Shown here: positions 6,175 to 21,421 of the stretch, piece by piece
Layout: each line of letters starts with the position of its first letter
Numbering within the stretch: the first letter of the stretch is position 1
DNA from: a virus
Strand: one strand, 5' to 3'
Virus record (IMG/VR): IMGVR_UViG_3300029988_000017
Location: 1 to 33,676 of that record
DNA: 33,676 nt
Translations under genes and position numbers: made by a program
Notes under the pieces: model-generated
Database searches by the model: none
The model's input: the letters and a program-made list of their open reading frames with translations, nothing else
Told to the model about the DNA's origin: nothing

Positions 6175-6630
6175 CTACGCCGCAGCGCTGCTCATTGTGA
6201 TGCCAGGCACGGCCTGGATTTCGTCGTCACCGTTATCGGCCATACCCATGGTGCCGCCGATCTCGCGGTAATCCATGACGCGATAGGCCATGCCGTCGCG
6301 CCCCATGTATTCCTCGCCGGCAAACTTACGGAAACAAATGCGATGACCAGGCGCGGGCTTTGGCGCATCATCGGGCCAGCGGTTGAACCCGGTTGAATCG
6401 TAGGAGAACGCCGCCGGGCCAGTCGCCACGATAACGCCAGTAGTGGCGGACATGGAGCCACTTTCCACCACTTCGTTTGTCATGATGATGCCGCCGCGCG
6501 TTTTGTCGATCGCCCGATCCGGTAGCACCAGCACGCGATCACAGATCGGCTCGATACCACTCTGGTTTTCGCCGGCCCACGATGCCATTTCATACTGCGC
6601 GTGCCTCGTTTTTAGAACGCGGGTGCTCAT
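6175..6630 (-). CDS. GroES-like co-chaperonin
   Basis: Starting at ATG 6630 (ATGA overlap with the gene before) this is 151 residues. A GroES/Cpn10 core is visible: PICDRVLVLPDRAIDKTRGG at residues 28-47, then the stretch where the mobile loop should lie, TTGVIVATGPA near 63, and GHRICFRKFAGEEYMGRDG near 93 with RVMDYREIGG closing the fold. Cpn10 caps the GroEL cage. Phage versions such as T4 gp31 replace host GroES for folding the capsid protein, which fits the position just before scaffold and capsid. It carries a 24-residue N-terminal extension and a C-terminal tail beyond the usual 97 residues. No GroEL is present, so it must work with the host chaperonin. Confidence 0.85.
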   Translation of the reverse strand: MSTRVLKTRHAQYEMASWAGENQSGIEPICDRVLVLPDRAIDKTRGGIIMTNEVVESGSMSATTGVIVATGPAAFSYDSTGFNRWPDDAPKPAPGHRICFRKFAGEEYMGRDGMAYRVMDYREIGGTMGMADNGDDEIQAVPGITMSSAAA

Positions 6631-6932
6631 GCTTGGCTGTCCCTGACTATAAAGGATGACGTGACTTTCACGGTCGTAATCTTCCGGCCGCACAGCATAC
6701 ATTTACGCCGCACGCTCACGTTGAGCGCGGGCATCGCGTGCCACTCCAGGATGCCGCCCTTGAAAAAAGCCCGCTCCCTGGCTGATTGCAGCCAGCAGGC
6801 GATCGCCGCTTCCTCGGAAACCTCTTGGCAGACCACATTGACGTGCCAAGCGTTTGCAGACGCATCAGCGCGCATAACCTTGGCAAACTCCGATTCGAAA
6901 ACACGCGTAGCGGCATCCAAAATGCGGCTCAT
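6627..6932 (-). CDS. Small phage protein with a C-terminal CxxC
   Basis: A 101-residue protein in the connector region. It begins with a helical MSRILDAATRVFESEFAKVM and ends with KCMLCGRKITTVKVTSSF, where one CxxC could bind metal or form a disulphide. Both ends overlap neighbouring genes by four bases (ATGA), placing it firmly in the operon. Function not recognised; head completion or assembly is a positional guess. Confidence 0.65.
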   Translation of the reverse strand: MSRILDAATRVFESEFAKVMRADASANAWHVNVVCQEVSEEAAIACWLQSARERAFFKGGILEWHAMPALNVSVRRKCMLCGRKITTVKVTSSFIVRDSQA

Positions 6933-8343: not shown

Positions 8344-10378
8344 TGAAAGCGTCCACCTTTGCCTTGAGGGTGTCGATTTGCAGCGAATACCAAGCCTGAT
8401 TGACCTCGTGATCGGCTTTCGATGCCTGGGCAAGCTGGTTGATGGCCTGCGCAAATATCAGCACCTCGCTGGCCTTATCCTTGCCGCGGCGAATAGCCAG
8501 ATCGGCCTCCTCATGGACCGCGCGAACCTTCGCCTCCATGCTGCGAAGATCAAGTTCGGACTGCTTGATATGCAGTTCCGCAACCTTGGCCCCAAGCGCC
8601 GGATCAGGCGGCTGTTGCGATAGCAGCAACTTGTCCACGTTCGGGAATAGTGCCGCGTCCAGGATTTCTTCGCGGATAGAGCGCTGGTCAATCCACGGGT
8701 CGCCGCGGAACTGCATTAGGAACTGAGCGCGCCCCAACTTTTGCATATCCGTAATCATCTGCGGATCGCTAATCGGCTCGACGCCCGCGCCAGCCTGATA
8801 ATCGGCCTGGCTAATGTCGTGCCACTCGCTTCCGCGCTGATAGCCGGCCTGTTGCGGTAGGTAGATGCGGTTCAGCCGAAATAGCTTGCGAAATTCTTGC
8901 TTCAACGAGCGGTGAATGCGCTTGTAGATCGCGCTAAAAACCTTCAACCCCTGCTCGATCATGGCCAGTGTTGCCACGCCGGACGTGTTATCGCCCGGCA
9001 AATCGCCGACCATCACATCCTTGACTGCCGCAATCTTCTCGCCACCATCCACCAAGAACTGCAAAAGTTCAAAAAGCACTTGGTTTGGGCCAGGGAACGG
9101 GATCGGAAACACGTTATCCCGAATGTTCGTGCCCTGCGTGTTGACCGGCTTGTATTCGCCCAACTGAAATCGAACCGCGCCGGTATTGATACTTAGCCCG
9201 GCGCCGATAAAGCCGCCGCCAGTGTTGGCCAGCGTGCCGGCATCCACCAACTGATTGAGCGCGGTGTTGATGGCGCAGTTGATCGGATACAGCAGGTTTC
9301 CGAAACCAATGTCGTAGACCTCTGACTCGGGGTTCGGAATAAAGCCGTATTTGGTGTAATAGCTGATCGGTTCAATCTTGCTGACACGATGATCGACGGG
9401 CGAGAACAGCACGCCGTCCTCGTCATACGCAGCCTTGATGCGTGCCAACCGACCGCTGTCCCGCGCTACCGTAACGATATAAGGCTCGGGATAGCCGTCG
9501 CCGTCCAGGTCGTAGCGGCGATGCTGCTCAATAAATGTGATCGGCGCGTCGTCATCGGTGCCCGCGCCCTGATCGGTGCCGTAGTCTTCGTCCAGGTAGA
9601 TGCCGGCGCGCACCTGCTCCTCAACCTGCCAGGGGTAGAGCTCCAGGAGTTCAGAAAGCCGCGGCGCGGTTTCGAAGGACTTGGCGTTGTAATTTACGCA
9701 TAGCTGCTTGGCGGTTACGGTCTCGCTCACATTGCGCTGCATGGCGGGGTCGAAATAGCTTTTGCGGAACATGAGCCCGACGATCGGCAGGATGATGAGC
9801 ATCCTGTCCGTCTGCGGCTCCCATTCCTCCTGCTCCTCCAGAAGTTGCCAACTCATGTGCTGGCCGATCTTGTCCGCGCGCTGCTTTTTCAAACCAGGCG
9901 GAATGCGCCACACAGGCTGCGGTCCGTTCGGGCCTTGCTGCGTCTGAGGCTGGCCGTTGCCATCCAGTTCGGGCACACCATCGTCAGGCCCTTCGATGGA
10001 GCCCTTGACCACATCACGGTCTCGAATGATCGCCGGATAGGCGCGCGCCGCAAATTGGATCGAGGCCGTGGTCATCAGCGGCCAAATGATGTTGGAACTA
10101 TCAGGCCACGGGAATGTTTTCGGTTCCGTGATTTGTAGCGCGAATTTCATCCACTTATCGTAGAGTTCCATCCATTCGGCGCGGCTTTCTTCGTCAATCC
10201 GGTATTCGCGGATGACCAGTTGCGCGATCCGGCCGCGCTCGTCGTCGCTCAGCTCGTCCGCAATGTTTGTTGCGGTGATCCAGCGTCGCAATTGCTCGTT
10301 TGCTTCCTGGTTGGGTCGGGGCGCGTTCGGACCCGGGAGAGCGGCGCCTTCTGGGGGAAGGTCTAGGACGTTGTTCAT
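8168..10378 (-). CDS. Portal protein, large P22-size type
   Basis: 736 residues from ATG 10378 (ATGA overlap with the gene before), close to the roughly 725 of P22-like portals. Motifs: FPWPDSSNIIWPLMTTASIQ near residues 92-111, PIVGLMFRKSYFDPA near 200, NYNAKSFETAPRL near 230, IEPISYYTKYGFIPNPESEV near 338 and GDLPGDNTSGVATLAMIEQG near 463. A long helical region follows (AELHIKQSELDLRSMEAKVR and onwards), then a low-complexity Gly/Pro tail. It forms the dodecameric DNA entry vertex. The gene order terminase, portal, scaffold, capsid supports it. The Gly-rich tail coincides with the overlapping gene 8032-8343. Confidence 0.88.
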   Translation of the reverse strand: MNNVLDLPPEGAALPGPNAPRPNQEANEQLRRWITATNIADELSDDERGRIAQLVIREYRIDEESRAEWMELYDKWMKFALQITEPKTFPWPDSSNIIWPLMTTASIQFAARAYPAIIRDRDVVKGSIEGPDDGVPELDGNGQPQTQQGPNGPQPVWRIPPGLKKQRADKIGQHMSWQLLEEQEEWEPQTDRMLIILPIVGLMFRKSYFDPAMQRNVSETVTAKQLCVNYNAKSFETAPRLSELLELYPWQVEEQVRAGIYLDEDYGTDQGAGTDDDAPITFIEQHRRYDLDGDGYPEPYIVTVARDSGRLARIKAAYDEDGVLFSPVDHRVSKIEPISYYTKYGFIPNPESEVYDIGFGNLLYPINCAINTALNQLVDAGTLANTGGGFIGAGLSINTGAVRFQLGEYKPVNTQGTNIRDNVFPIPFPGPNQVLFELLQFLVDGGEKIAAVKDVMVGDLPGDNTSGVATLAMIEQGLKVFSAIYKRIHRSLKQEFRKLFRLNRIYLPQQAGYQRGSEWHDISQADYQAGAGVEPISDPQMITDMQKLGRAQFLMQFRGDPWIDQRSIREEILDAALFPNVDKLLLSQQPPDPALGAKVAELHIKQSELDLRSMEAKVRAVHEEADLAIRRGKDKASEVLIFAQAINQLAQASKADHEVNQAWYSLQIDTLKAKVDAFNAGTDDGSPAINPADIVGIGNAAPANGPGVQPMAPPSSVQGGPALPVGPGGGAGGGGA

Positions 10379-10836
10379 GACCGATCTAAAGCCCATTCGG
10401 GAGTAGTAAGATGCTCAACATCAACCGCCCCCTGACTGCTGCCCATATCCGTGTACCTCAGTGTCAGGCGCACAGCTTCTTCAGCCGACGCGCTGGCGTA
10501 GAGCGCGCCCAGCGTGAAGGCGGACTGTACGCCGCACACGTAAAACGGCGCCTCATATGTCGTTGGCTGCAACAGCTCATCCCATAGCGTAACGGCACCA
10601 TCAGGGTGAACTTGGAGAGCGCGAAATCCATTCTCGTTCACAACCGCCGGACGATCGCCCGACTTTTGCAGCCAGTTTGCAAACATCGTGCTGGTTGATT
10701 GCGACCCTGCACAGGCAAGTAGTGCGCCATTCGCCATCCGTGTGATCTTTCGCATCTCGCCAGCGACAACACCCCCGCCAAGCCAGATGGAGCGGTCCGC
10801 AGCCATAACGCCGTCGCGGTACACGATAACTGTCAT
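10375..10836 (-). CDS. HslV/proteasome-like Ntn-hydrolase
   Basis: A 153-residue protein starting MTVIVYRDGVMAADRSIWLG. After Met removal the N-terminal Thr would be the nucleophile, as in HslV and proteasome beta subunits, and the following YRDG...AAD reproduces the family's first two strands. MRKITRMANGALLACAGSQS resembles the KI...G.L.G.AG motif, and GALYASASAEEAVRLTL fits the later helices. Phage members of this group are annotated as proteasome-like. The gene lies between large terminase and portal, ATGA-coupled to both sides. A role in prohead maturation or turnover is inferred; activity is not shown. Confidence 0.75.
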   Translation of the reverse strand: MTVIVYRDGVMAADRSIWLGGGVVAGEMRKITRMANGALLACAGSQSTSTMFANWLQKSGDRPAVVNENGFRALQVHPDGAVTLWDELLQPTTYEAPFYVCGVQSAFTLGALYASASAEEAVRLTLRYTDMGSSQGAVDVEHLTTPEWALDRS

Positions 10837-11162: not shown

Positions 11163-12659
11163 CTAATATCCCGTGACGCTAGACCGCGTGCGGTCAGACA
11201 AAAGCGAAGGCCGATAATCCGTGTCGTCCACGGCGCGCGATCGAAGTTCGGACCCGAACAGCCACGCCGCGCCATAGGTGCAGGCATCCGCCACGTGGCT
11301 GTGGGCATTCTTGTTGGGATGCACATCAAACCGCTCGCCAGAAACTTGCATGCGGCGGAAATGATACCCACCCAACAGCGCCTTGCGCAGCCGAACGCAC
11401 CGCGGATGCAGCGTAAATTGCGGCCGGCCATCACGCAGGGTCCGTAGCGGTTTGCGCATCGACTCCAGCCGAAGCTGCTCAGTCTGCGGCGCGGCCATCA
11501 TGTTGATGCCCTTGGCATGCGCGATCTGAAAGCACGTCTTGGTGTCAGTTTGCGCGCGCTGCTGGCCGGCGGGATCACCCACGTCCTCAAATGCCAGCCC
11601 GCGATAGTGGCGCGCCGAGTGCTCCAACACTGTGTCGGAGAACTCATCAAAACCCATGTCCGTGGCCACGATCTCGTCCACCACGTTCCATCGGCCATTT
11701 GGCGTCAACTGCGAGAACACGCACGCCGGCGTAAGTCCGAAATCGTACGAACGTAGCATCACGGCGCCGTCTATCGTCTTGGGGTGCAGCCGCGGGTCTT
11801 CTGGACAATGCATCGTATCGGAATACTCAGGAAACACCGGCTTACCATCGACGGTGAAGCCGTATTCGCCATGTAGATAGACCTTTACCCAGTCGTCGGT
11901 CTTACCCACCCGCTGCTTTTCGTAATACAGCGGTGGCAAATTGGCGATGTTCTCCGCGTTCGGACCCAGCCCAGAGGGCTGCTTGAAGCATTTGTAATAC
12001 GTGCCGGTGGTGTAGTGCGGAATCTTCAGCCCAAGCCGGTCAATCGCGGCGTTCAGCGCCTCAATATCCTCGGTATGGTCTTTTTCCTCAAAAAACTTGT
12101 ACCACTCGCTGTCCGTATCCGGCGGATTGGTGTCGCCGAATATGCCGAACCACTTGCATCCCCCGTCGCGCACCGCCGGATAGCGGCCAACGCGGCCCAT
12201 CATGGCTTCCCAAACCGCCCAGGGAATGTCGCGGCCCTCGTTAAACCACGCGCCAGTGTATTCGGTTGAAAGAAGGTTGCCGATCTGGTCCGGTCGATCC
12301 AGCGCGCGAAACAACACCTCAATCTCGGCGCCAGGCTCGCCCGGTGCGGCGGTCAGAGCCCTGATCGTGTAGCTGTGCGCAGATGGCTTCCAATCGCCAT
12401 AGGTGTACGGCGGGAACCACTGGAGAAACGTTTTGATAGTGGAGTCTTCGAGCTGGCGATAGCTGTTTCGAACGACCGCAAACCGCGACCGCCTTACACC
12501 ATCCGGCCCAGGCGTCTGCTCAATACCGCGCCGCGCAATCTCCATGACGCAGCCCGACGACTTACCACCGCCAAACGGACCCATGAGGCCGCGGATAAAC
12601 GCGTTCGATTGCGCAAATGCATTGATGGTGGGGACGGTCGCGTAGTCGTAGGACGGCAT
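11163..12659 (-). CDS. terL: Terminase large subunit
   Basis: 498 residues. Walker A is GPFGGGKSS at 27-35 (Lys33). An adaptor or Walker B region is TEYTGAWFNEGRDIPW near 132-147, and motif GIFGDTNPPDTDSEWY near 171 follows. The C-terminal nuclease starts with LRSYDFGLTPACVF near 306 and ends with HSHVADACTYGAAWLFG near 455, both typical of the RNase-H-like fold with acidic metal ligands. It drives DNA translocation into the prohead and cuts concatemers. A G-rich ribosome site lies just before ATG 12659. The gene stands directly before the connector and portal genes. Confidence 0.95.
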   Translation of the reverse strand: MPSYDYATVPTINAFAQSNAFIRGLMGPFGGGKSSGCVMEIARRGIEQTPGPDGVRRSRFAVVRNSYRQLEDSTIKTFLQWFPPYTYGDWKPSAHSYTIRALTAAPGEPGAEIEVLFRALDRPDQIGNLLSTEYTGAWFNEGRDIPWAVWEAMMGRVGRYPAVRDGGCKWFGIFGDTNPPDTDSEWYKFFEEKDHTEDIEALNAAIDRLGLKIPHYTTGTYYKCFKQPSGLGPNAENIANLPPLYYEKQRVGKTDDWVKVYLHGEYGFTVDGKPVFPEYSDTMHCPEDPRLHPKTIDGAVMLRSYDFGLTPACVFSQLTPNGRWNVVDEIVATDMGFDEFSDTVLEHSARHYRGLAFEDVGDPAGQQRAQTDTKTCFQIAHAKGINMMAAPQTEQLRLESMRKPLRTLRDGRPQFTLHPRCVRLRKALLGGYHFRRMQVSGERFDVHPNKNAHSHVADACTYGAAWLFGSELRSRAVDDTDYRPSLLSDRTRSSVTGY

Positions 12660-12667
12660 TGGCCCCC

Positions 12668-12874
12668 CTACGTCATTTTGCTGTCACTGGCCCTATATAT
12701 CTCGGCTGTGGGACGCATGCCGGAAGCGGCTGCATCAGCCTTGCTACGGGATATGACTGGTCGCGTGACTGGTTTCAGGTAGGCAAATTCCGACTTCGGA
12801 TCGGCGTGCGCCTGCTCGCTCTCTTGGAAGCAGCAGTCTTGAGGGCCGCCACGGGGAACTGGGGTGCGCGCCAT
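12668..12874 (-). CDS. Small protein before large terminase
   Basis: A 68-residue protein from ATG 12874, whose A is shared with the preceding TGA. Residues: MARTPVPRGGPQDCCFQESE at the start, later YLKPVTRPVISRSKADA. It is basic and Pro-rich and may be disordered. It lies 8 bases before the terminase start. The function is unknown; the small terminase cannot be excluded but there is no clear DNA-binding motif. Confidence 0.55.
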   Translation of the reverse strand: MARTPVPRGGPQDCCFQESEQAHADPKSEFAYLKPVTRPVISRSKADAAASGMRPTAEIYRASDSKMT

Positions 12875-13065
12875 CAACGTGGCGCCTTCGTTGGCTGAGC
12901 GGGCGTAGTGGCTGGATAAGCAGTAGGCTGCGCAGCGCTCGTCGCTTGGTACGCGCACTGGGGACGAGTGTCCGGCACCGCATAAGTATCGCCGAATTTA
13001 TTGACGCCGACCGTGGGGCCGCAGTCGTCTTCCTGCGCTGGCTTTGGTGGTGACTGGCTTGCCAT
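12874..13065 (-). CDS. Small Ala/Pro/Thr-rich protein
   Basis: A 63-residue protein starting MASQSPPKPAQEDDCGPTVG and ending in a low-complexity run (AAQPTAYPATTPAQPTKAPR). ATG 13065 overlaps the stop before it as TGATG; an in-frame GTG three bases upstream is an alternative. Its composition suggests a disordered linker protein. The function is unknown. Confidence 0.5.
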   Translation of the reverse strand: MASQSPPKPAQEDDCGPTVGVNKFGDTYAVPDTRPQCAYQATSAAQPTAYPATTPAQPTKAPR

Positions 13066-13283
13066 CACCCACGCCCCGGATGAAACGCCGCCTGCTTGAT
13101 CGACGGAAACGCTCTGGCCACCTTGCGTGAAACCGTTGTCTTTTCGGCCGCATCGCCATGCTGTGCCACGCGGGCCAGCGCGTTACGCGCATGCGCCTTA
13201 TCCTCAATCGGATAGCGCCCACTAGGCAGCGCAAAATCTTTTGCGGGCAGAGCGCTGCGCTCTTTACCCGTCAACTTAGCCAC
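13065..13283 (-). CDS. DUF6582-like small protein
   Basis: A 72-residue protein with KERSALPAKDFALPSGRYPI and EDKAHARNALARVAQHGDAA. This is a recurrent pattern in phage and prohead-protease neighbourhoods, where the same motif may occur fused to larger proteins. The last part, FPSIKQAAFHPGRG, is basic. It overlaps its neighbours at both ends. The role is unknown. Confidence 0.65.
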   Translation of the reverse strand: MAKLTGKERSALPAKDFALPSGRYPIEDKAHARNALARVAQHGDAAEKTTVSRKVARAFPSIKQAAFHPGRG

Positions 13284-13584
13284 GCGCGCCCAACTTCAGC
13301 TTTTGCTGGTAATCGAAAGCAGCACCTTCAATGTTTTTCCACCATTCGGACAGCGCCGCGTGGAAGCCCGTCAGGACCGGGTTGCCGATATCTAGCACCG
13401 CCGTGGCCGAAACGCCGTCGAGCGTGTAGCTCAGCGTGTGGACGCCGCCGCCGGCCGTGATGGCAACGCCATGGATAATAGCCGGGGAAGCGGCAGTTGG
13501 CGCTGCCGCCTCGCCCTTCAGCGCCGCAAGGTCGCTCTCAACCTTAGCGACCTCGGCCGCAACCTCGGCTGTCGTCTCGCTCAC
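13276..13584 (-). CDS. Small phage protein with helical start and beta tail
   Basis: A 102-residue protein. Residues 1-25 form a helix (TTAEVAAEVAKVESDLAALK); an Ala/Pro linker leads to GVHTLSYTLDGVSATAVLDI, likely beta strands, and a helix GFHAALSEWWKNIEGAAFDY. It is ATGA-coupled to the gene before and overlaps the next by eight bases. It may be a structural accessory; no family is recognised. Confidence 0.6.
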   Translation of the reverse strand: MSETTAEVAAEVAKVESDLAALKGEAAAPTAASPAIIHGVAITAGGGVHTLSYTLDGVSATAVLDIGNPVLTGFHAALSEWWKNIEGAAFDYQQKLKLGARG

Positions 13585-13859
13585 TTACGCACGCCGTGCG
13601 GGCCGTGATCCGGGTTGCGCGACGCGTCCATGAACCCACCACCCATCGGCACGGTCTTGCCGCAGCCGCGCTCGCTGTCAGATAGGGTTTTACCCATCAT
13701 AGCGCGATCGCCCGGAATGCACGTGACGCCAGGGTAATCGTTGACACCGAAGTTCTCGGCCTTAATCGGCCCTTCGCCGCGCGCGTTGGTCTGGTGCTGA
13801 CGCAGCCCCTCGGCTTTGATCTCGCCGCCCGGGCCGTGAGAACTGGATTCGCTCGCCAT
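13581..13859 (-). CDS. Small phage protein, unknown
   Basis: A 92-residue Gly- and charge-rich protein (SSSHGPGGEIKAEGLRQHQT; FGVNDYPGVTCIPGDRAMMG; ending DHGPHGVRK). Two cysteines are present. It is the first gene of the packaging run, preceded by GGAGTTGCACAT before ATG 13859. No known motif can be claimed. Confidence 0.55.
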   Translation of the reverse strand: MASESSSHGPGGEIKAEGLRQHQTNARGEGPIKAENFGVNDYPGVTCIPGDRAMMGKTLSDSERGCGKTVPMGGGFMDASRNPDHGPHGVRK

Positions 13860-13955
13860 ATGTGCAACTCCGCGCGTCAGATTTCGCGGACGCTAGACAC
13901 ACGGCGCGAAGTGCCGCAAGCGAAAAATGATACGAATGCGAACTAGTGTTTGTGA
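13860..13955. promoter_or_regulatory. Gap before the packaging genes
   Basis: These 96 bases separate the nucleotidyltransferase stop from the packaging genes. The minus strand carries repeated CAAAC units at the nucleotidyltransferase end and an AT-richer stretch (CGTATCATTTTTCGC), then the ribosome site. It is the most likely place for a late promoter, but no convincing -35/-10 pair was found, which would fit use of a phage activator. Confidence 0.3.
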
Positions 13956-15008
13956 TTATTTGGGAATGTTTGTAGAGGTTTGCGAATGGTTGCTTGCAGC
14001 GGCCAAGGTAGCAGCCACCGCGTTTCCGTAGGCATCCGCGATCAGGTCGCCGATGAATGCGTGGTCAGGCTCATCAGGCAGCGGCGACACGGCTTGCGCC
14101 GCCTCAACCTGCTCAAGCAACGCTTCGATTTCAGCGCCCACCTCGGCGTAGGGCAGAGCCCCTTGCTTAATAGCCAGTATGTGCGCGGCGTTCGGCAGGG
14201 GAAATGTGATCCAGCCTGTCGCTAGTAACTCCAGTGCCTCGGTTGCAACGCGCACAGCATGTGACAGCGCCTTCCAATCCACGCCCTCATTGCGTTCTGC
14301 GGCCAGGGCGCGGTGCCCATATTCGTCCAACAATCGGGCGTAGATGGCTCGCGTGTCTTTCAGCGACGTAAAATAGGGCGCCTTGCGGTTGCAGCACTCA
14401 AGATGCGGAATGGGGTCGGGGCGGCTCGGATGCTCAATGTGGATAATGGACGTATGCTCAAGCGCCTGATCGGCAATGAACGCCGCCAGTGACGGCGCAG
14501 CCGCTTCCAGTTTTGCCAAGTGACCGTGCTGGGCAATCGCTCCGTCGAACCATTCCACGATATTGCGCACCGCATGAACGCGCGACCCCCGGATGCCGTA
14601 TTTGTTTGCTTGGGTGCGACAGTAGCCGACGAAGCTAGCAGACTTCTTACTGACGAGCCTTGTCCGATTGTTCACGATTTCATGCCATAGCGGCGCAGGT
14701 TCGGCGCGCATGGACACGCGCGGCGCGAACAGCATATCCAGTGCGACAGTCTGGCCCTCGGAAAGCAGTTGTAGGTAGCGGTGGAGCGCGTAGGCTTCTT
14801 CGTCTATTTCGCCAGCGTAGTTCTTTTCGCCATCAACTTTGGGCCGCTTATTGCTGACCGTGTGCTTGACGTTCTGCAAAAGAATGTTGCGCGCTGGCGG
14901 GATGAACACGGCCTTGTAATCAATGTCAGATGCCGGCGTGCTTGTGCCATAGAGGTGCGATCCGAAGCGGATTTCGACCAGATTGGCAGTCGTTTTGTCC
15001 CGCGTCAT
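13956..15008 (-). CDS. RlaP-like nucleotidyltransferase
   Basis: 350 residues. The DNA-polymerase-beta-type active site is plain: FGSHLYGTSTPASDIDYKAV with Gly16-Ser17, Asp28 and Asp30, and a probable third carboxylate in TVALDMLFAP near residue 93. This matches the RlaP group of predicted nucleotidyltransferases, named for its link to T4 RNA ligase in RNA repair. The C-terminal part is helical. Substrate is unknown; tRNA or RNA end modification is one possibility. ATGA overlap joins it to the small gene before. No RNA ligase or kinase gene is seen beside it. Confidence 0.8.
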   Translation of the reverse strand: MTRDKTTANLVEIRFGSHLYGTSTPASDIDYKAVFIPPARNILLQNVKHTVSNKRPKVDGEKNYAGEIDEEAYALHRYLQLLSEGQTVALDMLFAPRVSMRAEPAPLWHEIVNNRTRLVSKKSASFVGYCRTQANKYGIRGSRVHAVRNIVEWFDGAIAQHGHLAKLEAAAPSLAAFIADQALEHTSIIHIEHPSRPDPIPHLECCNRKAPYFTSLKDTRAIYARLLDEYGHRALAAERNEGVDWKALSHAVRVATEALELLATGWITFPLPNAAHILAIKQGALPYAEVGAEIEALLEQVEAAQAVSPLPDEPDHAFIGDLIADAYGNAVAATLAAASNHSQTSTNIPK

Positions 15009-15181
15009 GGTTCGAGTGCGCTTCTGTATATCCCGGCGGGAAAGCCAATAAGGCCAATTCGCAGCAACTCTATCCGGCCAGATTCCTCCCAGGACGATAC
15101 AACAGTTTCAAGATGCGGCATCAGCGGCTGGTAGTTGAACTCTCTCCGCACAGGCTCGCCCTCAGCGCCCAGCCAAAACAT
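15005..15181 (-). CDS. Small protein coupled to the nucleotidyltransferase
   Basis: A 58-residue protein: MFWLGAEGEPVRREFNYQPL, LETVVSSWEESGRIELLRIG and ending AGIYRSALEP. The start ATG 15181 gives a complete frame that overlaps the nucleotidyltransferase start by ATGA. The mix of strand and helix residues looks genuine. The function is unknown; partner of the nucleotidyltransferase by position. Confidence 0.6.
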   Translation of the reverse strand: MFWLGAEGEPVRREFNYQPLMPHLETVVSSWEESGRIELLRIGLIGFPAGIYRSALEP

Positions 15182-15193
15182 GCATGTAAGCCA

Positions 15194-15430
15194 TCACGCC
15201 ACGACCGTATCCCGCAGCCGCTCCCGCGTCTGCCGACGATACCCTTTCGCCCACGTCAGCAGCGCTCCCCATTCATACATGACGACCCGATGAAACATCG
15301 AATACGGCGGCCCGTTTCCTCGGCTGGCCAACGTCGCCAGCGTGGACGGCGCGATGGGATACCCCGCGTCAGTTAAGGCCTTTGCCGCGTCGTTGCGGCG
15401 CAGTCGGGATGTGGGGTCAAGGTCTGTCAC
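15194..15430 (-). CDS. Small helix-turn-helix protein, AlpA/excisionase-like
   Basis: A GTG start at 15430 is chosen: AGGAGA lies 5 bases upstream, and an upstream ATG would give an unlikely basic extension. The 78 residues include LRRNDAAKALTDAGYPIAPS, TLATLASRGNGPPYSMFHR and YEWGALLTWAKG, the layout of a winged helix-turn-helix of the MerR/AlpA type (helix, turn, helix, GxGPPY wing). Such proteins act as excisionases or transcription regulators. It lies in the operon with the nucleotidyltransferase. Confidence 0.7.
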   Translation of the reverse strand: MTDLDPTSRLRRNDAAKALTDAGYPIAPSTLATLASRGNGPPYSMFHRVVMYEWGALLTWAKGYRRQTRERLRDTVVA

Positions 15431-15462
15431 GGCGTTCTCCTGTGTTGGCGCAAAGGATGTGG

Positions 15463-15630
15463 TCACGCAGCCCACCGCTGCTCGGCGCCCAGCGGCCGAT
15501 GCTCCCCGCACCGTCGCCAGTGCGGCCCGAGATGGGCAAACGTCAGGACGACGCGCTGGCGCAACGCCGCGGCAATTATCGTGTAGGGGTCGGGTGGGGC
15601 TGCAGCGGAAAGGCCGGCGTCCAAATCCAT
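15463..15630 (-). CDS. Small hypothetical phage protein
   Basis: A 55-residue protein: MDLDAGLSAAAPPDPYTIIA, LRQRVVLTFAHLGPHW and CGEHRPLGAEQRWAA. ATG 15630 overlaps the preceding stop as TGATG. Length and coupling argue for a real gene. The function is unknown. Confidence 0.55.
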   Translation of the reverse strand: MDLDAGLSAAAPPDPYTIIAAALRQRVVLTFAHLGPHWRRCGEHRPLGAEQRWAA

Positions 15631-15860
15631 CACTTCACCTCATGAGTAAACACACCCACCAACTTCCCGGCTTTCCCAAACATCGCCCCGTCGTGGTGCC
15701 GCACCGTCACCGCGCCGGTGACACCCTTGGATTGCAACACACCCTCCACAGACGCGCCATTGCTCGACCTGGCAGGCAGATGGCCGGGACGCACGAGCGT
15801 TTGCGGCTGGCCTTTATGCCCGAAGGATATGACCGTGTGGGGATGGGCTACATTGCGCAT
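15630..15860 (-). CDS. Small hypothetical phage protein
   Basis: A 76-residue basic protein: NVAHPHTVISFGHKGQPQTL, LVRPGHLPARSSNGASVEGV and a final GKAGKLVGVFTHEVK. AAGAGG lies upstream of ATG 15860. It has seven histidines and looks beta-rich. It overlaps the gene before by 13 bases. The function is not recognised. Confidence 0.5.
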   Translation of the reverse strand: MRNVAHPHTVISFGHKGQPQTLVRPGHLPARSSNGASVEGVLQSKGVTGAVTVRHHDGAMFGKAGKLVGVFTHEVK

Positions 15861-16018
15861 GGGAAAACCTCTTCGCTAACGTGATGCATTACGGCGCGCC
15901 GTTGCCACGCCAGATCGGCACCTACCCGGCGGCTGAGCGCGACCGACGGCTGCTCTACAAACCGCCAAACCAACCAATGGCAAAACACAACGGCACCGAG
16001 GGCTGGGACGCGTTTCAC
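15848..16018 (-). CDS. Small basic protein, GTG start
   Basis: The GTG at 16018 overlaps the stop of the preceding gene as GTGA and gives 56 residues (KRVPALGAVVFCHWLVWRFV; LSRRVGADLAWQRRAVMHHV). One hydrophobic stretch could be a short membrane segment. An ATG at 16075 is in frame but lies inside the preceding gene. The coding call rests on operon continuity, so confidence is moderate. Confidence 0.45.
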   Translation of the reverse strand: MKRVPALGAVVFCHWLVWRFVEQPSVALSRRVGADLAWQRRAVMHHVSEEVFPCAM

Positions 16019-16227
16019 TTCGGCATCACGCGGGTGAGCGGCGATGCTGGCGCTAAGGTTGTCAACGTGGCGCATGAAAGCCGATTCTTTTTTGAACCAT
16101 TAAAGATGCGATCATACTTGGCAGCGCGGTGAGAAATTATATCAGGGGCCATCGCTTTAGAATGCCCCCGAAGTGCGTGCAGCATGGCATCCGATATCAT
16201 GCGCACCTGATTCAGCGTTATGGCCAC
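16015..16227 (-). CDS. Small protein at the head of a leftward operon
   Basis: A GTG start at 16227 has GGAG 8 bases upstream. The 70 residues begin with a helix (ITLNQVRMISDAMLHALRGH) and end ASPLTRVMPK. It is the first gene of the leftward unit that includes the nucleotidyltransferase, diverging from the rightward island. The function is unknown. A rightward open frame at 15881-16132 competes but has no ribosome site. Confidence 0.5.
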   Translation of the reverse strand: MAITLNQVRMISDAMLHALRGHSKAMAPDIISHRAAKYDRIFNGSKKNRLSCATLTTLAPASPLTRVMPK

Positions 16228-16269
16228 ATCGCAGCTCCAAAAAAACTTAGCTTAGCCGCAAAATAGCTG

Positions 16270-16298
16270 TTGACTACGCCGCGTTGTGCGGACATAGT
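16270..16298 (+). promoter_or_regulatory. Promoter P1 of the rightward island
   Basis: TTGACT at 16270-16275, exactly 17 bases, then CATAGT at 16293-16298. It resembles a sigma-70 promoter and matches the second copy at 16891-16919 in spacing and in the TGTGCGG in the spacer. Confidence 0.75.
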
Positions 16299-16311
16299 GA
16301 CGCCACGCCGA

Positions 16312-16346
16312 GGGGATTGGCCCCGGCACGTTGAGGGATTGGCCCC
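16312..16346 (+). promoter_or_regulatory. Hairpin plus SD leader of the first island unit
   Basis: GGGG (16312-16315), a 5-base loop and CCCC (16321-16324), then GAGGGATT at 16333-16340, ten bases of which lie before ATG 16347. The same elements recur at the same distances before ATG 16968. The hairpin could stabilise the message or meter translation. Confidence 0.65.
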
Positions 16347-16541
16347 ATGAACGCTTACGTGATTTCTTACGATGCCGGCTACGAAGCCCCGTTCGGCGCA
16401 GCTCGCTTTGCCGACATCGGCCCCGTGTCGCGCTACGCTACCTACAAAACCCCGTTTCGCTACTTCCCCAGCCACGCGGAGGCCGTAGAGTTCGTGGAGT
16501 CCGTGGGCGGCACCATCATTGATGACGACGCGGAGGGCTAG
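16347..16541 (+). CDS. Small island protein 1
   Basis: A 64-residue acidic protein: MNAYVISYDAGYEAPFGAAR, VSRYATYKTPFRYFPSHAEA and ending GGTIIDDDAEG. It is the first gene of the rightward island, with its own promoter and GAGGG ribosome site. Tyr and Phe are frequent. No family is recognised; a small binding or inhibitor protein is possible. Confidence 0.65.
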   Translation: MNAYVISYDAGYEAPFGAARFADIGPVSRYATYKTPFRYFPSHAEAVEFVESVGGTIIDDDAEG

Positions 16542-16544
16542 GAT

Positions 16545-16850
16545 ATGGCAAACGAGCTCGCATGGCTCCGTAGCAAAGCCGAACTCAAAACTACTGATGT
16601 TCTGTCGGTTTCCGTCGAACGCGGTGCCGAATCTGGGATTGAGCCGGGCAACTACGAGGCGCGGTATTACGCCTTTGAGGGCAATCTGCCGTTTCGTATG
16701 GTCGCTAAATTGCGGGGCTGCAAAGACCTGATTAACGACGAATACACCAGCGAGGTTCTGCGCCTGGGCACAGGCTACCGAGATGGCGAAACGGCATGCC
16801 GTTTCTACCGGACCACATACACACTGATTGCAGAAACTGTGGGGGGCTAA
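16545..16850 (+). CDS. Small island protein 2
   Basis: A 101-residue protein: ANELAWLRSKAELKTTDVLS, ESGIEPGNYEARYYAFEGNL, RMVAKLRGCKDLINDEYTSE and ending YTLIAETVGG. AGGAT lies before ATG 16545, three bases after the previous stop. A terminator overlaps its stop codon. It looks like a globular alpha/beta protein; the function is unknown. Confidence 0.7.
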   Translation: MANELAWLRSKAELKTTDVLSVSVERGAESGIEPGNYEARYYAFEGNLPFRMVAKLRGCKDLINDEYTSEVLRLGTGYRDGETACRFYRTTYTLIAETVGG

Positions 16851-16868
16851 CAACCCTCCAATTTTTTT
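16841..16868 (+). terminator. Rho-independent terminator of island unit 1
   Basis: GGGGGG, loop CTAACAA, CCCTCC (six pairs, one G-T), followed by A and seven T residues. It overlaps the stop codon region of the preceding gene and separates the two units of the island. Confidence 0.7.
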
Positions 16869-16890
16869 ACTCAACCCCCTATTTTTCCGC

Positions 16891-16919
16891 TTGCCTTTGT
16901 CCGCGATGTGCGGCATAAC
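16891..16919 (+). promoter_or_regulatory. Promoter P2 of the rightward island
   Basis: TTGCCT at 16891-16896, 17 bases, CATAAC at 16914-16919. It is offset exactly 621 bases from promoter P1, as are its hairpin, ribosome site and start codon. Confidence 0.7.
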
Positions 16920-16932
16920 ACTGCTACGGCGA

Positions 16933-16967
16933 GGGGCTGTTCCCCGCCGCAACGAGGGATTACCCAG
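16933..16967 (+). promoter_or_regulatory. Hairpin plus SD leader of the second island unit
   Basis: GGGG (16933-16936), 5-base loop, CCCC (16942-16945), GAGGGATT at 16954-16961, then ATG 16968. It is the second copy of the leader before ATG 16347. Confidence 0.65.
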
Positions 16968-17510
16968 ATGCAAGCCACCTATCTCACCAGCGCCGAAACC
17001 GCGAAACTGATCCGCGCCGCGTTGAAGCGCTCTTTCCCCACCACCAAATTTAGCGTTCGCTGCTCGCGTGGTTCGGCCATCTACGTGGAATACACGGACG
17101 GTCCCGCCCTCGCGCTGGTCAAGCCAGTTGCCGACCAATTTCGCGGTGGCCACTTTGATGGCTCTATCGACATGCGTATCGGTCATACGAGCTGGCTCCT
17201 GCCGGACGGCACAGCCACAGTTGCCAGCAACCCAGGCACCGAAGGTAGCGGCGGCTACATCCCGGCACATCGCGAATGGATGCCCAGCCCCGACGCTAAA
17301 CTGGTCCACTTCGGCGCCGATTTTGTTTTCGTGCAGCGCCGCATGTCGGAAGCATTCGCTAACCGCGTGCTGGCTAAAATCGCCGATCGCTTCGGCGACA
17401 CCGGCCTGGGTGTGGCCATCTACAGCGATGGCGCATCGTTCACCGGAGATTATCAGTGGACCAGCCGCGCTTACGAAACCGCAACCCGCTTTATGATCGT
17501 GAAAGGCTAA
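16968..17510 (+). CDS. LPD29-domain protein
   Basis: 180 residues from ATG 16968. The N-terminal half has the look of the LPD29 domain (large polyvalent protein associated): TAKLIRAALKRSFPTTKFSV, SAIYVEYTDGPALALVKPVA and QFRGGHFDGSIDM. LPD domains occur in large phage and conjugative polyproteins thought to act during entry. Here the domain stands almost alone, followed by a C-terminal region GADFVFVQRRMSEAFANRVL and FGDTGLGVAIYSDGASFTG. Its function is not known. It has a separate promoter and leader from the two genes before. Confidence 0.75.
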   Translation: MQATYLTSAETAKLIRAALKRSFPTTKFSVRCSRGSAIYVEYTDGPALALVKPVADQFRGGHFDGSIDMRIGHTSWLLPDGTATVASNPGTEGSGGYIPAHREWMPSPDAKLVHFGADFVFVQRRMSEAFANRVLAKIADRFGDTGLGVAIYSDGASFTGDYQWTSRAYETATRFMIVKG

Positions 17511-17512
17511 CC

Positions 17513-17722
17513 ATGACTCCTGACCAGTTTCGCGCCTGCCTTGATAGCCTCCGCTGGACACAGCGGGGGCTTGCCTCCGCGCTTCTATGCGATGAGCGCA
17601 TGGTGCGAAGGTGGGGAACTGGGGCAATGAATATCCCTGCCCCGATTGCAGTGTGGCTGACTCGGCTAGCCAACGCGCACGACGCCAACCCAGTGCCGGA
17701 CTGGCGCACCCGAGCGCGCTAG
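17513..17722 (+). CDS. Small XRE-type helix-turn-helix protein
   Basis: A 69-residue protein: TPDQFRACLDSLRWTQRGLA, SALLCDERMVRRWGTGAMNI, then PAPIAVWLTRLANAH. This is the helix-turn-helix of small Cro-like proteins (Q..LA..L......R.W..G...IP). It follows the LPD29 gene after two bases and may autoregulate the island, for example at the two TGTGCGG promoters. It is convergent with the DUF5681 gene, the two ending side by side. Confidence 0.75.
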   Translation: MTPDQFRACLDSLRWTQRGLASALLCDERMVRRWGTGAMNIPAPIAVWLTRLANAHDANPVPDWRTRAR

Positions 17723-18073
17723 TCACTCCACCACCTTCGGCATGTTCACCGTGAACACCACGAGGCCGCGCCCTACAGCTTTCCCGTTTTCGTCCTGCTC
17801 CATTGTGGGCTGCACCGGCTTGCCCCACCCGCGTTCGAGCAACGCCACGGCAGCCGTAGCCCGTGCGGCAGGCGGCTTTGTATCGTCCGTTGCGATATCG
17901 ACCAGCGCCTGCATGGCAACAGCAGTATGTTTGCGAGCCATTTCAACGACTTCGGCAACACCCTTTGGCCTTCCGCCTGGGTTGCCAGACTTGCCCGGCA
18001 TGAACCCTGCGCCAGACGCACCACCCCTGCGTTCAACGGCCTTCTTCTCAACGCCATCCGTCTTGTCGCTCAT
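17723..18073 (-). CDS. DUF5681-like protein, possible small terminase
   Basis: 116 residues from ATG 18073 (ATGA overlap). The hallmark GFMPGKSGNPGGRPKG lies at residues 24-39, followed by a helical region (KHTAVAMQALVDIATDDTKP; ARATAAVALLERGWGKPVQP). DUF5681 proteins frequently precede large terminase genes and are candidates for the DNA-recognition subunit. Here it is 5 kb upstream of terL, beyond the rightward island, so the role is tentative. Confidence 0.7.
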   Translation of the reverse strand: MSDKTDGVEKKAVERRGGASGAGFMPGKSGNPGGRPKGVAEVVEMARKHTAVAMQALVDIATDDTKPPAARATAAVALLERGWGKPVQPTMEQDENGKAVGRGLVVFTVNMPKVVE

Positions 18074-18222
18074 AGCCCCTCCACCAGTTCCAGCACGAGC
18101 GCTGCCGAACAGAGCGCGTAGGCAACCAGGTTCAGCCCCAAAACCCAGCCTATCGGGCCGATCGCGATGAAGATGCCGCTGCCGATGGCCCCGGACGTCA
18201 GGTATTTTGCTCGTTTGGTCAT
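18070..18222 (-). CDS. Small two-segment membrane protein
   Basis: A 50-residue protein from ATG 18222: MTKRAKYLTSGAIGSGIFIA, then IGPIGWVLGLNLVAYALCSA and a short acidic tail. A positive N-terminus and two hydrophobic stretches divided by a Pro-Gly turn predict a hairpin in the inner membrane. It is ATGA-linked to both neighbours. A holin-like role is conceivable but there is no lysis context, so the function is open. Confidence 0.6.
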   Translation of the reverse strand: MTKRAKYLTSGAIGSGIFIAIGPIGWVLGLNLVAYALCSAALVLELVEGL

Positions 18223-18410
18223 GGCACTTCTGCCGCTTTCGCCGCATCCGCCTCGGACACGAGCCCCGGCTGCTGGATGAGCCTGGAGCCCGTAGGAGCC
18301 TGCTGGAGCACCGTTGCGGCTTGGGCGTAGTCGGCTGCCACCGACGCAGCCTTGGCCCGCACGGAGGCCAGCCAGTCGGGCCAGGACATGGGTTGCGGCT
18401 TGGGGGTCAT
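18219..18410 (-). CDS. Small helical protein
   Basis: A 63-residue protein: MTPKPQPMSWPDWLASVRAK, AASVAADYAQAATVLQQAPT and ending SEADAAKAAEVP. Mostly an Ala-rich helix. ATG 18410 overlaps the frame before it as ATGA, and the stop overlaps the membrane protein start. The function is unknown. Confidence 0.5.
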   Translation of the reverse strand: MTPKPQPMSWPDWLASVRAKAASVAADYAQAATVLQQAPTGSRLIQQPGLVSEADAAKAAEVP

Positions 18411-18511
18411 GGGGTGACCTGGTTGTGGGCGCACGGCCGCGGGCCTTTCACCCCAGGGATGTGACGCTCAGCATCGTTTGGGATTGTCGAACCTCGCATC
18501 GCTGTTTTCAT
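18407..18511 (-). CDS. Possible 34-residue protein at the edge of the repeat array
   Basis: From ATG 18511: MKTAMRGSTIPNDAERHIPG and ending GPRPCAHNQVTP. It is supported mainly by the ATGA overlap with the following gene. AGAGG directly before the ATG is too close for a normal ribosome site. The longer frame reading back through the ACCGGAA repeats is rejected. Low confidence. Confidence 0.3.
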   Translation of the reverse strand: MKTAMRGSTIPNDAERHIPGVKGPRPCAHNQVTP

Positions 18512-18526
18512 CCTCTGATTTTCCCC

Positions 18527-18664
18527 ACCGGAACCTGCACCGGAAAACGCACCGGAAAGCGTGTCCCCCAAAGGGGATTTCCGGCACCGCACCGGAAACC
18601 CCTTTAGGGGGCTTTCCGAAAACTTCCGGTGCCACCGGAAGTAGCACCGGAACCTGCACCGGAA
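18527..18664. repeat. ACCGGAA iterons and dyad: candidate replication origin
   Basis: Seven ACCGGAA copies on the given strand at 18527, 18539, 18551, 18591, 18634, 18646 and 18658; the two outer groups of three repeat at exactly 12 bases. Between them lies a near-perfect inverted repeat with centre at about 18588: CCCCC-aAAGGGG-at-TTCCGG at the left and CCGGAA-a-CCCCTTTaGGGGG at the right. ACTTCCGGT-gcc-ACCGGAAGT (18622-18642) is a second perfect palindrome. The array directly follows the primase-helicase gene, as expected for an origin or for an operator of replication genes. Confidence 0.75.
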
Positions 18665-18665
18665 G

Positions 18666-20858
18666 CTATTCACCATTCTGGGCTCCTTCAGTGTCCCACC
18701 ACTCCACAGAACGGGGTTCACCGTTGCTTGTGCGGAGGGCGTTGGGACTGTCGGCACGCGTCTTTCTGGCTTTCCGGTATTGAGCGATTTCGACTAATCC
18801 AGACGCCTTGATCTGTTGCAGTGCTTGCGTCTGAGCTGCTTTGCCCTCGATGCCGAGGGAGGCGAATCCCTGCGCGATGGAGCGCGGATCGGCGCTGAGC
18901 CGCGGGCTCCAAGGACCAACCGGAGATCCGCGTGCCACCAACGCTTCGATTTGAGACATAGCGGCCTGATCCAGCGCCACGGTTGGCGGAAACCATGGGA
19001 GCGGGACAGCAACGCGGTCGTGGTTGTCAAGCTGATACTCGATGCGTTCAAACCATTCCGCGTCCTGAATACGTGAGTAATTCTTTTTTGCGTCGTCAAC
19101 TCGGAAATAATCTCGCCGGCTATCTTCCGGAACACCTAGTTTTACACATTCCTCCACGGACATGATGTTAACGGTTAGCGCCACGCGGCCGGCGCCGATG
19201 ATGGACGACGCACCGCGGATTGAGTCCGGGTCGCCTGGAGTTGCCGCGCCTTTGCGGGTGTGGGCCAGGATGCCGAGCGCCAGGCTATGACGCCGCGCGA
19301 AGCTACGGAACGCGGCGAGAACAAGCCTAATGGCTGTGTTGTCGTTTTCCTCCGCTCCGTGCAGTTCCACGAACGGGTCTAGCCAAGCGGAGTCTGGCTT
19401 TAGATCACCGATAATCTGATCAAGCTCATCCATAGCTGACGTGTTCAGCAGCACATTGCCGTCGCGGTTCAGGTGAAGCAGCGTCCCGACATCATTGGGG
19501 CCACATAGAATTAAATTCTTGAGCAGATCGGAAGGTGTGGTGTCGAACTGGCGTGCCATAGCGCTGTAGCGTCTGCGCTGCTCGTCCGCGTCATCCTCGA
19601 CGTTGTAAAACAGGGTTTTTAGCGGGCCTGGCTTGTAGGGTCGGAAGCGTCCGAACTCACGGCCGGTCGCGTGCGCGGCGGTCCACGCCACGGTGAGTGA
19701 CGATTTTCCGGCACTCGGAGGGCCACCCAAGATCGTGACAGCATTGCGCAGCAGGAATCCGGGAGCGACCCATGGGCGCTGTGGGATTTCTTGCTCAGTC
19801 CACGCCTGAGTGATCAGGTAGAGGGTTTTGCGGTTTTCAACCGGAAGTTCCGGCTCGATTACGCCGTAGTCGTCGTGGCTATCTGGATGCGGAACATCGT
19901 CGAGCGGAGGCTCCTCCGGTTCAGACGTGCGCTGCCGGGCCATGTGAAATAGGGTGCCAGCACCGATCTTGCTCGGAGGGCTTTGGTGATAGTGGTCCCA
20001 TCGCTCTTGCGCGGCTGTGGCATCGTAGGAGGCGTGCTGCTGGCTCCATGCGTGCCACATGCCCTGCCCAGCCATAGAGCCGGCGGTAGCGGCGAATAGC
20101 GCCATGCCAACACGGTTCCAGTGCTCCCAATCGGTCGGGCCATCGTTGGGAATGGCGCACATGGCCGCCACCACCTGGAGCGCGTCCGCTGCTTGCAATC
20201 CCTGCACCGATACGGCACCCACACCGGTCCGATAGTTCTCGGGCTTGGCGCCGATCAGTGGCGCGGCGAAGGCCAGCAGCTTCGTTACATCATCCTCTGT
20301 GACGGCTGGAATTTGATCAATCGTGGTTTCGCCTGGCGCATCGCCAATCCATTGCAGATCAGCGCCGGACCAGTGGCGGCCGAAAGCCACGAACTGTTGC
20401 CCGTGGCCTAGCACTTCCAGTTTGTGGCGTGGTCCCGCGATCTTACGCTTTGGCGGCTCGCCTTCGGACGCGCGATAGACGATCAGGATGCGCGGCGAGT
20501 TGGTGCGGAAGCGAATTGGCGCCTCGCCCCAGCGCGCCAATACCGCTGCCTTGATCTGGCCGACGATATCCACGTCATCAATGTCAAGATCGATGCCGCG
20601 AAGACCGTCGCACAGAATTCCGGTATTGAGCGCGTCCGGCTCAGGCGCACTTTCGGCGCCGTCAGGTGGTGTTTGCCGAGCGCGCTCCTGCCACGCCAGC
20701 CCCTTGGGCGCCTTGCCGGAATTTTCCTCGCCGCTTTTGATGTTGTAGACCGCGACTGGCCGGAAACCGCTTTCCCAAAGCCGGGAACGCAGCGAAGCAA
20801 CGGCAGCAATTTGCGCCGGTAAGGGCAATGAGTGCGGCGTGGAAAGCGACATGCTCAT
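18666..20858 (-). CDS. Primase-polymerase and helicase fusion
   Basis: 730 residues from ATG 20858 (ATGA overlap). N-terminal primase-polymerase domain with GIDLDIDD at 88-95 (metal ligands Asp90, Asp92), then RTNSPRILIVYR and a GHGQQFVAFGRH motif. A PriCT-2-like linker, IPNDGPTDWEHWNRVGMALF, is near 240. The C-terminal RecA/RepA-type ATPase has Walker A GGPPSAGKSS near 376 and a Walker B-like SAWLDPFVELHG near 484, with LGILAHTRKG downstream. It would prime and unwind at the origin; the iterons lie right after the gene, which suggests self-contained replication. Confidence 0.88.
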   Translation of the reverse strand: MSMSLSTPHSLPLPAQIAAVASLRSRLWESGFRPVAVYNIKSGEENSGKAPKGLAWQERARQTPPDGAESAPEPDALNTGILCDGLRGIDLDIDDVDIVGQIKAAVLARWGEAPIRFRTNSPRILIVYRASEGEPPKRKIAGPRHKLEVLGHGQQFVAFGRHWSGADLQWIGDAPGETTIDQIPAVTEDDVTKLLAFAAPLIGAKPENYRTGVGAVSVQGLQAADALQVVAAMCAIPNDGPTDWEHWNRVGMALFAATAGSMAGQGMWHAWSQQHASYDATAAQERWDHYHQSPPSKIGAGTLFHMARQRTSEPEEPPLDDVPHPDSHDDYGVIEPELPVENRKTLYLITQAWTEQEIPQRPWVAPGFLLRNAVTILGGPPSAGKSSLTVAWTAAHATGREFGRFRPYKPGPLKTLFYNVEDDADEQRRRYSAMARQFDTTPSDLLKNLILCGPNDVGTLLHLNRDGNVLLNTSAMDELDQIIGDLKPDSAWLDPFVELHGAEENDNTAIRLVLAAFRSFARRHSLALGILAHTRKGAATPGDPDSIRGASSIIGAGRVALTVNIMSVEECVKLGVPEDSRRDYFRVDDAKKNYSRIQDAEWFERIEYQLDNHDRVAVPLPWFPPTVALDQAAMSQIEALVARGSPVGPWSPRLSADPRSIAQGFASLGIEGKAAQTQALQQIKASGLVEIAQYRKARKTRADSPNALRTSNGEPRSVEWWDTEGAQNGE

Positions 20859-21421
20859 TTGCGGTCCGCGTCGGGCCAACCGGCATGCAGCCGATCGTGG
20901 CAAGGGTCGCACACGGGTTGGAGCTCAAATGCTGGCGGAAGACGGCCAAAGTCGTAGGTCTTATGGTGGACCTGAGTTGCTGGGGACAGCAGGCACGCTT
21001 GGCAGAGCCCGTGGTGATGCTGAATTACGCGATTACGGAGTTGTTTCCACTGCGGCGATGCGCGAAGCCATTCTCCATAGTCGGCGCTTTGCGCGGCGCG
21101 CTTACGTTGAAACTCAGCTTGCACCACGCGGCGGCGCTCATCAAGGCCGGATTGAGCATCGTCGCGATAGCGTTCCGGCAGAGCAGGGTCCCATTCGGGA
21201 TACTGCTCCCAATTATGGTGCTGATCACGCGGCAGAGCGCCGCCAGAGTGCTGCGACCCGCACGTCAGGCATTGCAGGCACACGACCCAATGACCGCCGA
21301 CCTTGCGCTTTGTCAGCGTCATTTGCGAGCCGCCACAATATGTCGGTTTCGACAGCGCATCGCACACGCGAACGCGCTGCGATTCTGTCATCGGAGGCCA
21401 TGGATGGGAAAGTTCCATCAC
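20855..21421 (-). CDS. HNH endonuclease
   Basis: 188 residues. The C-terminal part shows the HNH fold: RNRVIQHHHGLCQACLLSPA with CxxC, then TQVHHKTYDF and LQPVCDPCHDRLHAG with the second CxxC and the last His. The N-terminus has extra cysteines (VVCLQCLTCGSQ), likely a second zinc site. HNH enzymes in phages nick DNA during packaging or as homing enzymes. Here it is within the replication operon, coupled by ATGA at each end, so replication or recombination is more likely than packaging. Confidence 0.85.
   Translation of the reverse strand: MMELSHPWPPMTESQRVRVCDALSKPTYCGGSQMTLTKRKVGGHWVVCLQCLTCGSQHSGGALPRDQHHNWEQYPEWDPALPERYRDDAQSGLDERRRVVQAEFQRKRAAQSADYGEWLRASPQWKQLRNRVIQHHHGLCQACLLSPATQVHHKTYDFGRLPPAFELQPVCDPCHDRLHAGWPDADRK

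Follow-up and report, generated by a model that had tools for sequence, protein, structure and literature searches.

The repeat array directly behind the primase-helicase gene of this viral contig is probably a phage replication origin, and its likely reader is the initiator encoded by that adjoining gene. We put the probability of this reading at roughly 85%, based on sequence comparison and on analogy with studied origins. The window analyzed is the whole stretch of 33,676 nucleotides (IMG/VR record IMGVR_UViG_3300029988_000017, positions 1 to 33,676). A preliminary description made from the letters of the window had proposed a plasmid- or phage-type origin here, and the proposal is supported by four lines of evidence: arrays with private units recur behind related helicase genes, stay with the primase when packaging genes are swapped, occur on plasmids, and match the layout of studied origins. 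As far as sequence can tell, the data show an array that is physically and evolutionarily tied to the gene of a RepA-type helicase, with a unit of its own in every element and a dyad that different elements have in common. The features of the region are as follows.

18432..18665, no strand: noncoding stretch, with 235 nt identical in the relative L005 and an unrelated terminase module thereafter in that contig.
18526..18557, minus strand: distal iteron triplet, three CACCGGAA on the plus strand, TTCCGGTG on the gene strand, with a 12-nt period.
18553..18618, no strand: large dyad with two CCCC-W-GGGG palindromes (CCCCCTAAAGGGG and CCCCTTTGGGGG on the gene strand) and one iteron (18590-18597); its core is conserved in the relative L006.
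18622..18642, no strand: 10+10 palindrome ACTTCCGGTG-C-CACCGGAAGT, containing one inverted and one direct iteron.
18633..18664, minus strand: proximal iteron triplet with a 12-nt period, directly behind the primase stop codon.
18666..20912, minus strand: primase-helicase gene with Prim-Pol, PriCT-2 (PriCT_2) and RepA-type AAA_25 domains (Pfam).

Eight CACCGGAA units, seven direct and one inverted, are packed into 139 nt around the 66-nt dyad. The core motif ACCGGAA starts at 18527, 18539 and 18551 and again at 18634, 18646 and 18658, which confirms the two triplets at exact 12-nt intervals reported in the preliminary description. One additional copy lies within the dyad at 18591, and an inverted one starts at 18624. 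The inverted repeat of about 48 bases noted earlier was found with arms at 18565-18584 and 18592-18611 and is even longer than described, extending outward via CGGAAAGC and GCTTTCCG to the dyad limits given above, while the palindrome described as a perfect 9+9 is in fact 10+10 with 1 nt between its arms. Read along the gene strand, TTCCGGTGCAGG TTCCGGTGCTAC TTCCGGTGG CACCGGAAG begin one base past the stop and are followed by the dyad, which lies 48 nt from the stop and holds one unit inside, and then by three units, the first of which overlaps the dyad end. The array, previously described as noncoding or nearly so, is noncoding: the primase stop (18666) bounds it on one side and the next minus-strand ORF (start 18434) on the other. 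It is far above chance: the rest of the 33.7 kb holds a single copy of the 8-mer CACCGGAA, inverted, at 22861, and in 100 Markov-shuffled windows any 8-mer reached at most 6 copies (mostly 3) per 150 nt, compared with eight for CACCGGAA. Folding of the region against shuffles gave z = -7.0 and -6.6 for the two strands. No obvious AT-rich melting region or AT-rich block was seen at 18526-18664. The GC-skew check proposed earlier revealed no switch at the array, either in the window or in six plasmids; being uninformative in both, GC skew was dropped as an origin marker.

The gene in front of the array encodes 748 aa when read from a GTG and 730 aa from the first internal ATG. Its Pfam domains and the position of the array right behind its stop bear out the earlier statement that a primase-polymerase/helicase gene adjoins the repeats. 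RSF1010 RepA was the sole PDB sequence match of the protein (1g8y/1nlf, E=2e-5) and also gave the best structural matches to a model of the whole protein. A C-terminal tail of about 100 aa follows the recognized domains. A Pfam scan of this tail returned no DNA-binding match in the window protein, and its model (mean pLDDT 48.6) was too poor for a structure search.

Two close relatives found among viral contigs, L005 and L006, allow the array to be followed through changes in the surrounding genes. The primase of L005 is 100% identical to that of the window (tblastn), and L005 matches the window for 235 nt past the stop, keeping the whole array, before diverging into an Sf6-type terminase module. 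The 6 kb that follow the L005 primase contained no match to either the DUF5681 protein or the large terminase of the window. In L006 the primase is 66% identical and the layout is as in the window, with the core CCCCTAAAGGGGTTTC then GGTGCGGTGC kept and a repeat based on CCGTGC. Because L005 joins the same primase and array to an unrelated terminase module, the array appears to belong to replication rather than packaging. The two relatives together therefore indicate that the array travels with the replication gene and that its unit diverges with it. The exchange itself is clean: L005 8247-11293, with its Sf6-type terminase pair, stands opposite window 11163-18666, with an unrelated terminase and an SU10-like portal. 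Elsewhere among the window genes, an RlaP-type nucleotidyltransferase (PF10127, phrog_388; 13956-15008, minus strand) is encoded between the terminase and replication genes, and an HslV-like peptidase (phrog_1040; 10375-10836, minus strand) by the portal gene; a weak GroES-like co-chaperonin match (phrog_3188) lies at 6175-6702 on the minus strand.

Viral contigs and 398 genomes of Pseudomonadota (the phylum of L011), 89 of these genomes with a match, were the source of the AAA_25 genes, most of which were recruited by protein similarity; the genes belong to phages, integrated elements and plasmids. An array was scored when at least 4 exact copies of one 8-mer fell within -120 to +450 nt of the stop, and 99 distinct genes had enough flank for scoring. 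Arrays were detected at 44/99 AAA_25 genes versus 13/1,473 random positions in the same loci; when at least 5 copies were required, the counts from these sets were 33 and 6, respectively. Six sequences known beforehand to carry repeats had served as seeds for the helicase profile, and seed-free counts were computed separately: after grouping by AAA domain, 32 of 67 clusters had an array, as did 27 of 62 once the clusters holding the seed sequences that prompted the idea were left out. The array units differ among elements, including AGGACACC, CGTTCCCA, GTCCGGCA, CGGCGACA, AATGGCGG, CGATACAG and others. On inspection, weaker arrays were visible in L121, L129, L206 and L208, though these had been scored as array-less, and some AAA_25 genes had no visible array at all. 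An array is present in Microcystis phage Mae-Yong1326-1, and that of Rhodoferax phage P26218 lies about 500 nt downstream of the AAA_25 gene, beyond a small gene. Rhizobium phage RHph_X2_26 carries an AAA_25 gene with no detectable array and was rejected as a described relative. Homologous phages lacking the repeats had been named at the outset as evidence that would refute an origin; this is partly the case, since some AAA_25 genes, that of RHph_X2_26 among them, show no array.

Some loci from the survey show additional features. Arrays past the AAA_25 stop in L045, L115, L130, L144 and L168 have recurrent AT-rich words (ATTGAAAA, AACATATTGA, TGAAATCA) between the iterons, possibly a melting element that the window array is missing. 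In Mae-Yong1326-1 (L231), 15 copies of GCCCTCGC occupy about 220 nt some 2.2 kb past the AAA_25 stop, in the region of an annotated CobT-like gene. In the phage contig L034, which has a GGTGGCGCA array, the protein encoded at 9116-10045 (minus strand), about 2.7 kb upstream of AAA_25, contains a DnaA C-terminal DNA-binding domain (PF08299).

Arrays with unrelated units also have a palindrome in common. The window dyad includes this CCCTWWAGGG element, and the decamer CCCTAAAGGG, counted on either strand, occurs in 16/65 arrays and in 0/1,024 control windows of the same loci. The looser pattern CCT[AT]0-4AGG occurs 1.15 times per kb where arrays have four or more copies, versus 0.07 per kb elsewhere. 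Searching viral contigs with CCCCTAAAGGGGTTTC only returned 22 stretches, some of which were arrays with wholly different units round that palindrome, and this search led to adjacent AAA_25 genes in L025, L026 and L034. The palindrome alone is not diagnostic because other CCCCTAAAGGGGTTTC matches, in A+T-rich contigs such as L015 and L027, resemble ordinary terminators. A TGTCACGC array round a CCCCTAAAGGGG palindrome was also seen in L030 around 1426-1441 (minus strand), a truncated contig in which no recognized helicase gene adjoins it.

The same arrangement was found on plasmids. In the circular records pVL1_6, pR24_3, pMRAD08 and pKp_Goe_795-4, AAA_25 is the only recognized replicase and the array lies at its 3' end; this status follows the annotation, where a further initiator might be concealed among the hypothetical proteins. 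Methylobacterium currus unnamed4, Methylobacterium sp. FF17 pD and Caenibius p1 (12 copies) are further such plasmids, seen around the gene only. The M. lotononidis plasmid unnamed3 has an array and carries RepBC too. Several of the array-bearing plasmids look like phage-plasmids.

Which part of the protein reads the repeats can be approached by comparing the helicase proteins. All 30 aligned proteins match AAA_25, while 15 match Prim-Pol and 5 match Toprim, and arrays of at least 4 copies accompany 18 of 53 proteins shorter than 500 aa. Across this set the constant partner of the array is the RepA-type helicase and not the Prim-Pol domain. An HTH domain above the Pfam cut-off was found at the end of 4 of 10 further helicases. 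The tail of the window protein may have a winged-helix or HTH fold. A clade of four loci, whose arrays fall within the 3'-terminal part of the AAA_25 coding sequence, provides a natural experiment: L152 has 7 copies of CGTGACA and none of CGGGACA, whereas L158, L183 and L205 have 8-9 copies of CGGGACA and none of CGTGACA. Such a concerted one-base change is the behavior expected of binding sites of one protein. The L152 helicase domain is little changed despite the iteron switch. With the array-coded part excluded, the substitutions unique to L152 number 17 in the C-terminal part versus 5 in the helicase, compared with 8 and 11 for the other three loci together (Fisher p = 0.03), an excess that is no more than suggestive. 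Initiator-origin co-evolution would be directly testable in this clade. A global comparison of iteron sharing with C-terminal and with helicase similarity was rejected as a pointer to the reader domain, as both similarities rise together and neither is singled out. As a working hypothesis, the window array may be read by the C-terminal tail of the primase-helicase.

Other functions for the repeats were weighed against an origin. The repeats could be a packaging site (cos/pac), recognized like the R sites of lambda cosB by the small terminase subunit from a neighboring gene. This would fit the DUF5681 protein of unknown function encoded just downstream of the window array and the terminase genes found downstream of the array in several phage-like elements (L233, L238). 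However, 6 kb separate the array from the large terminase of the window, arrays adjoin the helicase gene regardless of what follows them, and L005 keeps array and primase unchanged next to a different, Sf6-type terminase pair. We rejected packaging on the basis of this module swap and regard it as extremely improbable. We also consider it very unlikely that the array is a non-replicative control element, either a terminator with an operator or a partition (parS-like) site. The array does begin right past a stop codon, its palindrome is terminator-like in the A+T-rich contigs, and in some mycobacteriophages a parS site lies directly downstream of repA (PMC7157519). Yet a terminator scan found none at the array, leading us to reject an intrinsic terminator at the dyad, and a promoter scan found none in 18000-21000. 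The absence of CCCTAAAGGG from the control windows likewise argues against a general terminator in those loci, and a parS site would leave the link to the helicase gene unexplained.

It is unlikely, if less remote, that the Prim-Pol domain recognizes the repeats as template sites, in place of the helicase tail binding them as double-stranded DNA. Synthesis by NrS-1 PrimPol begins at TTTGGTTA and also at GTG (PMC8718748), the window unit TTCCGGTGC contains GGTG, and CCPol-MP of SCCmec primes at its own origin iterons (PMC7581432). Against this stand the aligned proteins without a Prim-Pol match, five of them with Toprim instead, and the arrays behind short proteins. Priming at the repeats could nevertheless be a second role.

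For an origin read by its own initiator, we envisage the following sequence of events. First, the C-terminal tail of the primase-helicase would bind the TTCCGGTGC iterons. With protein bound on either side of the dyad, RepA-type helicase hexamers would then assemble and the dyad would be opened or extruded, a role in initiation that is hypothetical for the dyad. Finally, the strands exposed in this way may be primed by the Prim-Pol domain, with the CCCCTAAAGGGG hairpin as a conceivable start site; this is the weakest step. Three IncQ functions, namely RepC iteron binding, RepA helicase and RepB' primase, would thus reside in one chain with its origin directly downstream.

More broadly, the RepA-type helicase gene, the private 3' iteron array and the shared CCCTWWAGGG dyad might define one large unnamed origin class to which IncQ plasmids would belong together with numerous phages, phage-plasmids and integrated elements, an idea that we hold tentatively and at somewhat under even odds. 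Searches of open-access papers yielded no account of arrays of this kind behind RepA-type helicases of phages. If the idea is true, IncQ-like (possibly strand-displacement) initiation would be widespread in tailed phages, and the iteron and the C-terminal reader of the helicase would evolve together as a fast-changing identity tag. The findings themselves yield a simple rule for locating the probable origin of a phage or integrated element that has a RepA-type helicase: inspect the AAA_25 stop codon for a private repeat around a CCCTWWAGGG dyad.

The window array resembles several known origins in how it would work, and it is not filed as a member of any of them because the IncQ, PICI and pRN1 features tested partly failed. 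At the IncQ oriV, RepC, RepA and RepB' act at iterons and ssi sites (PMC6925257). RSF1010-type plasmids share the RepA-type helicase family with the window in both sequence and fold, compact IncQ1 plasmids have iterons directly behind the replication genes, and two of four IncQ plasmids examined have a CCCTTTAGGGG palindrome downstream (GAGCCCTTTAGGGGCTC in oriV). On the other hand, the three IncQ proteins are separate, RepC reads iterons of 20-22 nt, and an AT-rich segment and ssiA/ssiB hairpins are present as well, whereas the window has one fused chain and its units, 8-9 nt long and spaced by 12 nt, flank a dyad. The window ORFs scanned gave no RepC-like match, and in place of separate repC and repB' genes one ORF holds Prim-Pol, PriCT-2 and AAA_25 together.

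In SaPI/PICI elements the origin is directly 3' of rep, with two sets of short, element-specific iterons around an AT-rich region (PMC6092414), and the C-terminal domain of PICI Rep reads the iterons (PMC7581432). In the window, too, a pair of iteron sets follows the initiator gene immediately on its 3' side, but a GC-rich dyad lies between them in place of the AT-rich region. Moreover, these satellites lack phage structural genes of their own, whereas the window encodes portal, capsid and large terminase and is a phage contig. In pRN1 a movable stem-loop behind the PrimPol-helicase gene is required as the origin, with a similar one proposed for phage BIP-1, and the purified replication protein showed no specific origin binding (PMC4234260). 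The window likewise has a PrimPol-helicase gene followed by a dyad predicted to form a stem-loop (z = -7), but pRN1 is an archaeal plasmid with an SF3 helicase and no iterons, and the window helicase is of the RepA/RecA-type AAA_25 family. In SCCmec the isolated C-terminal domain of Cch2 binds direct repeats downstream of its operon, and an origin behind the initiator gene has biochemical support (PMC7581432). Cch2 is similarly an initiator helicase with repeats downstream; it differs in its helicase (MCM-like polarity, 3'-to-5'), its polymerase-derived primase and its iteron, AAGTG. With the present data, tailed phages and phage-like plasmids join the elements that show a similar layout. The window combines features of these known origins, in that its primase and RepA helicase are fused and iterons flank a dyad in the center.
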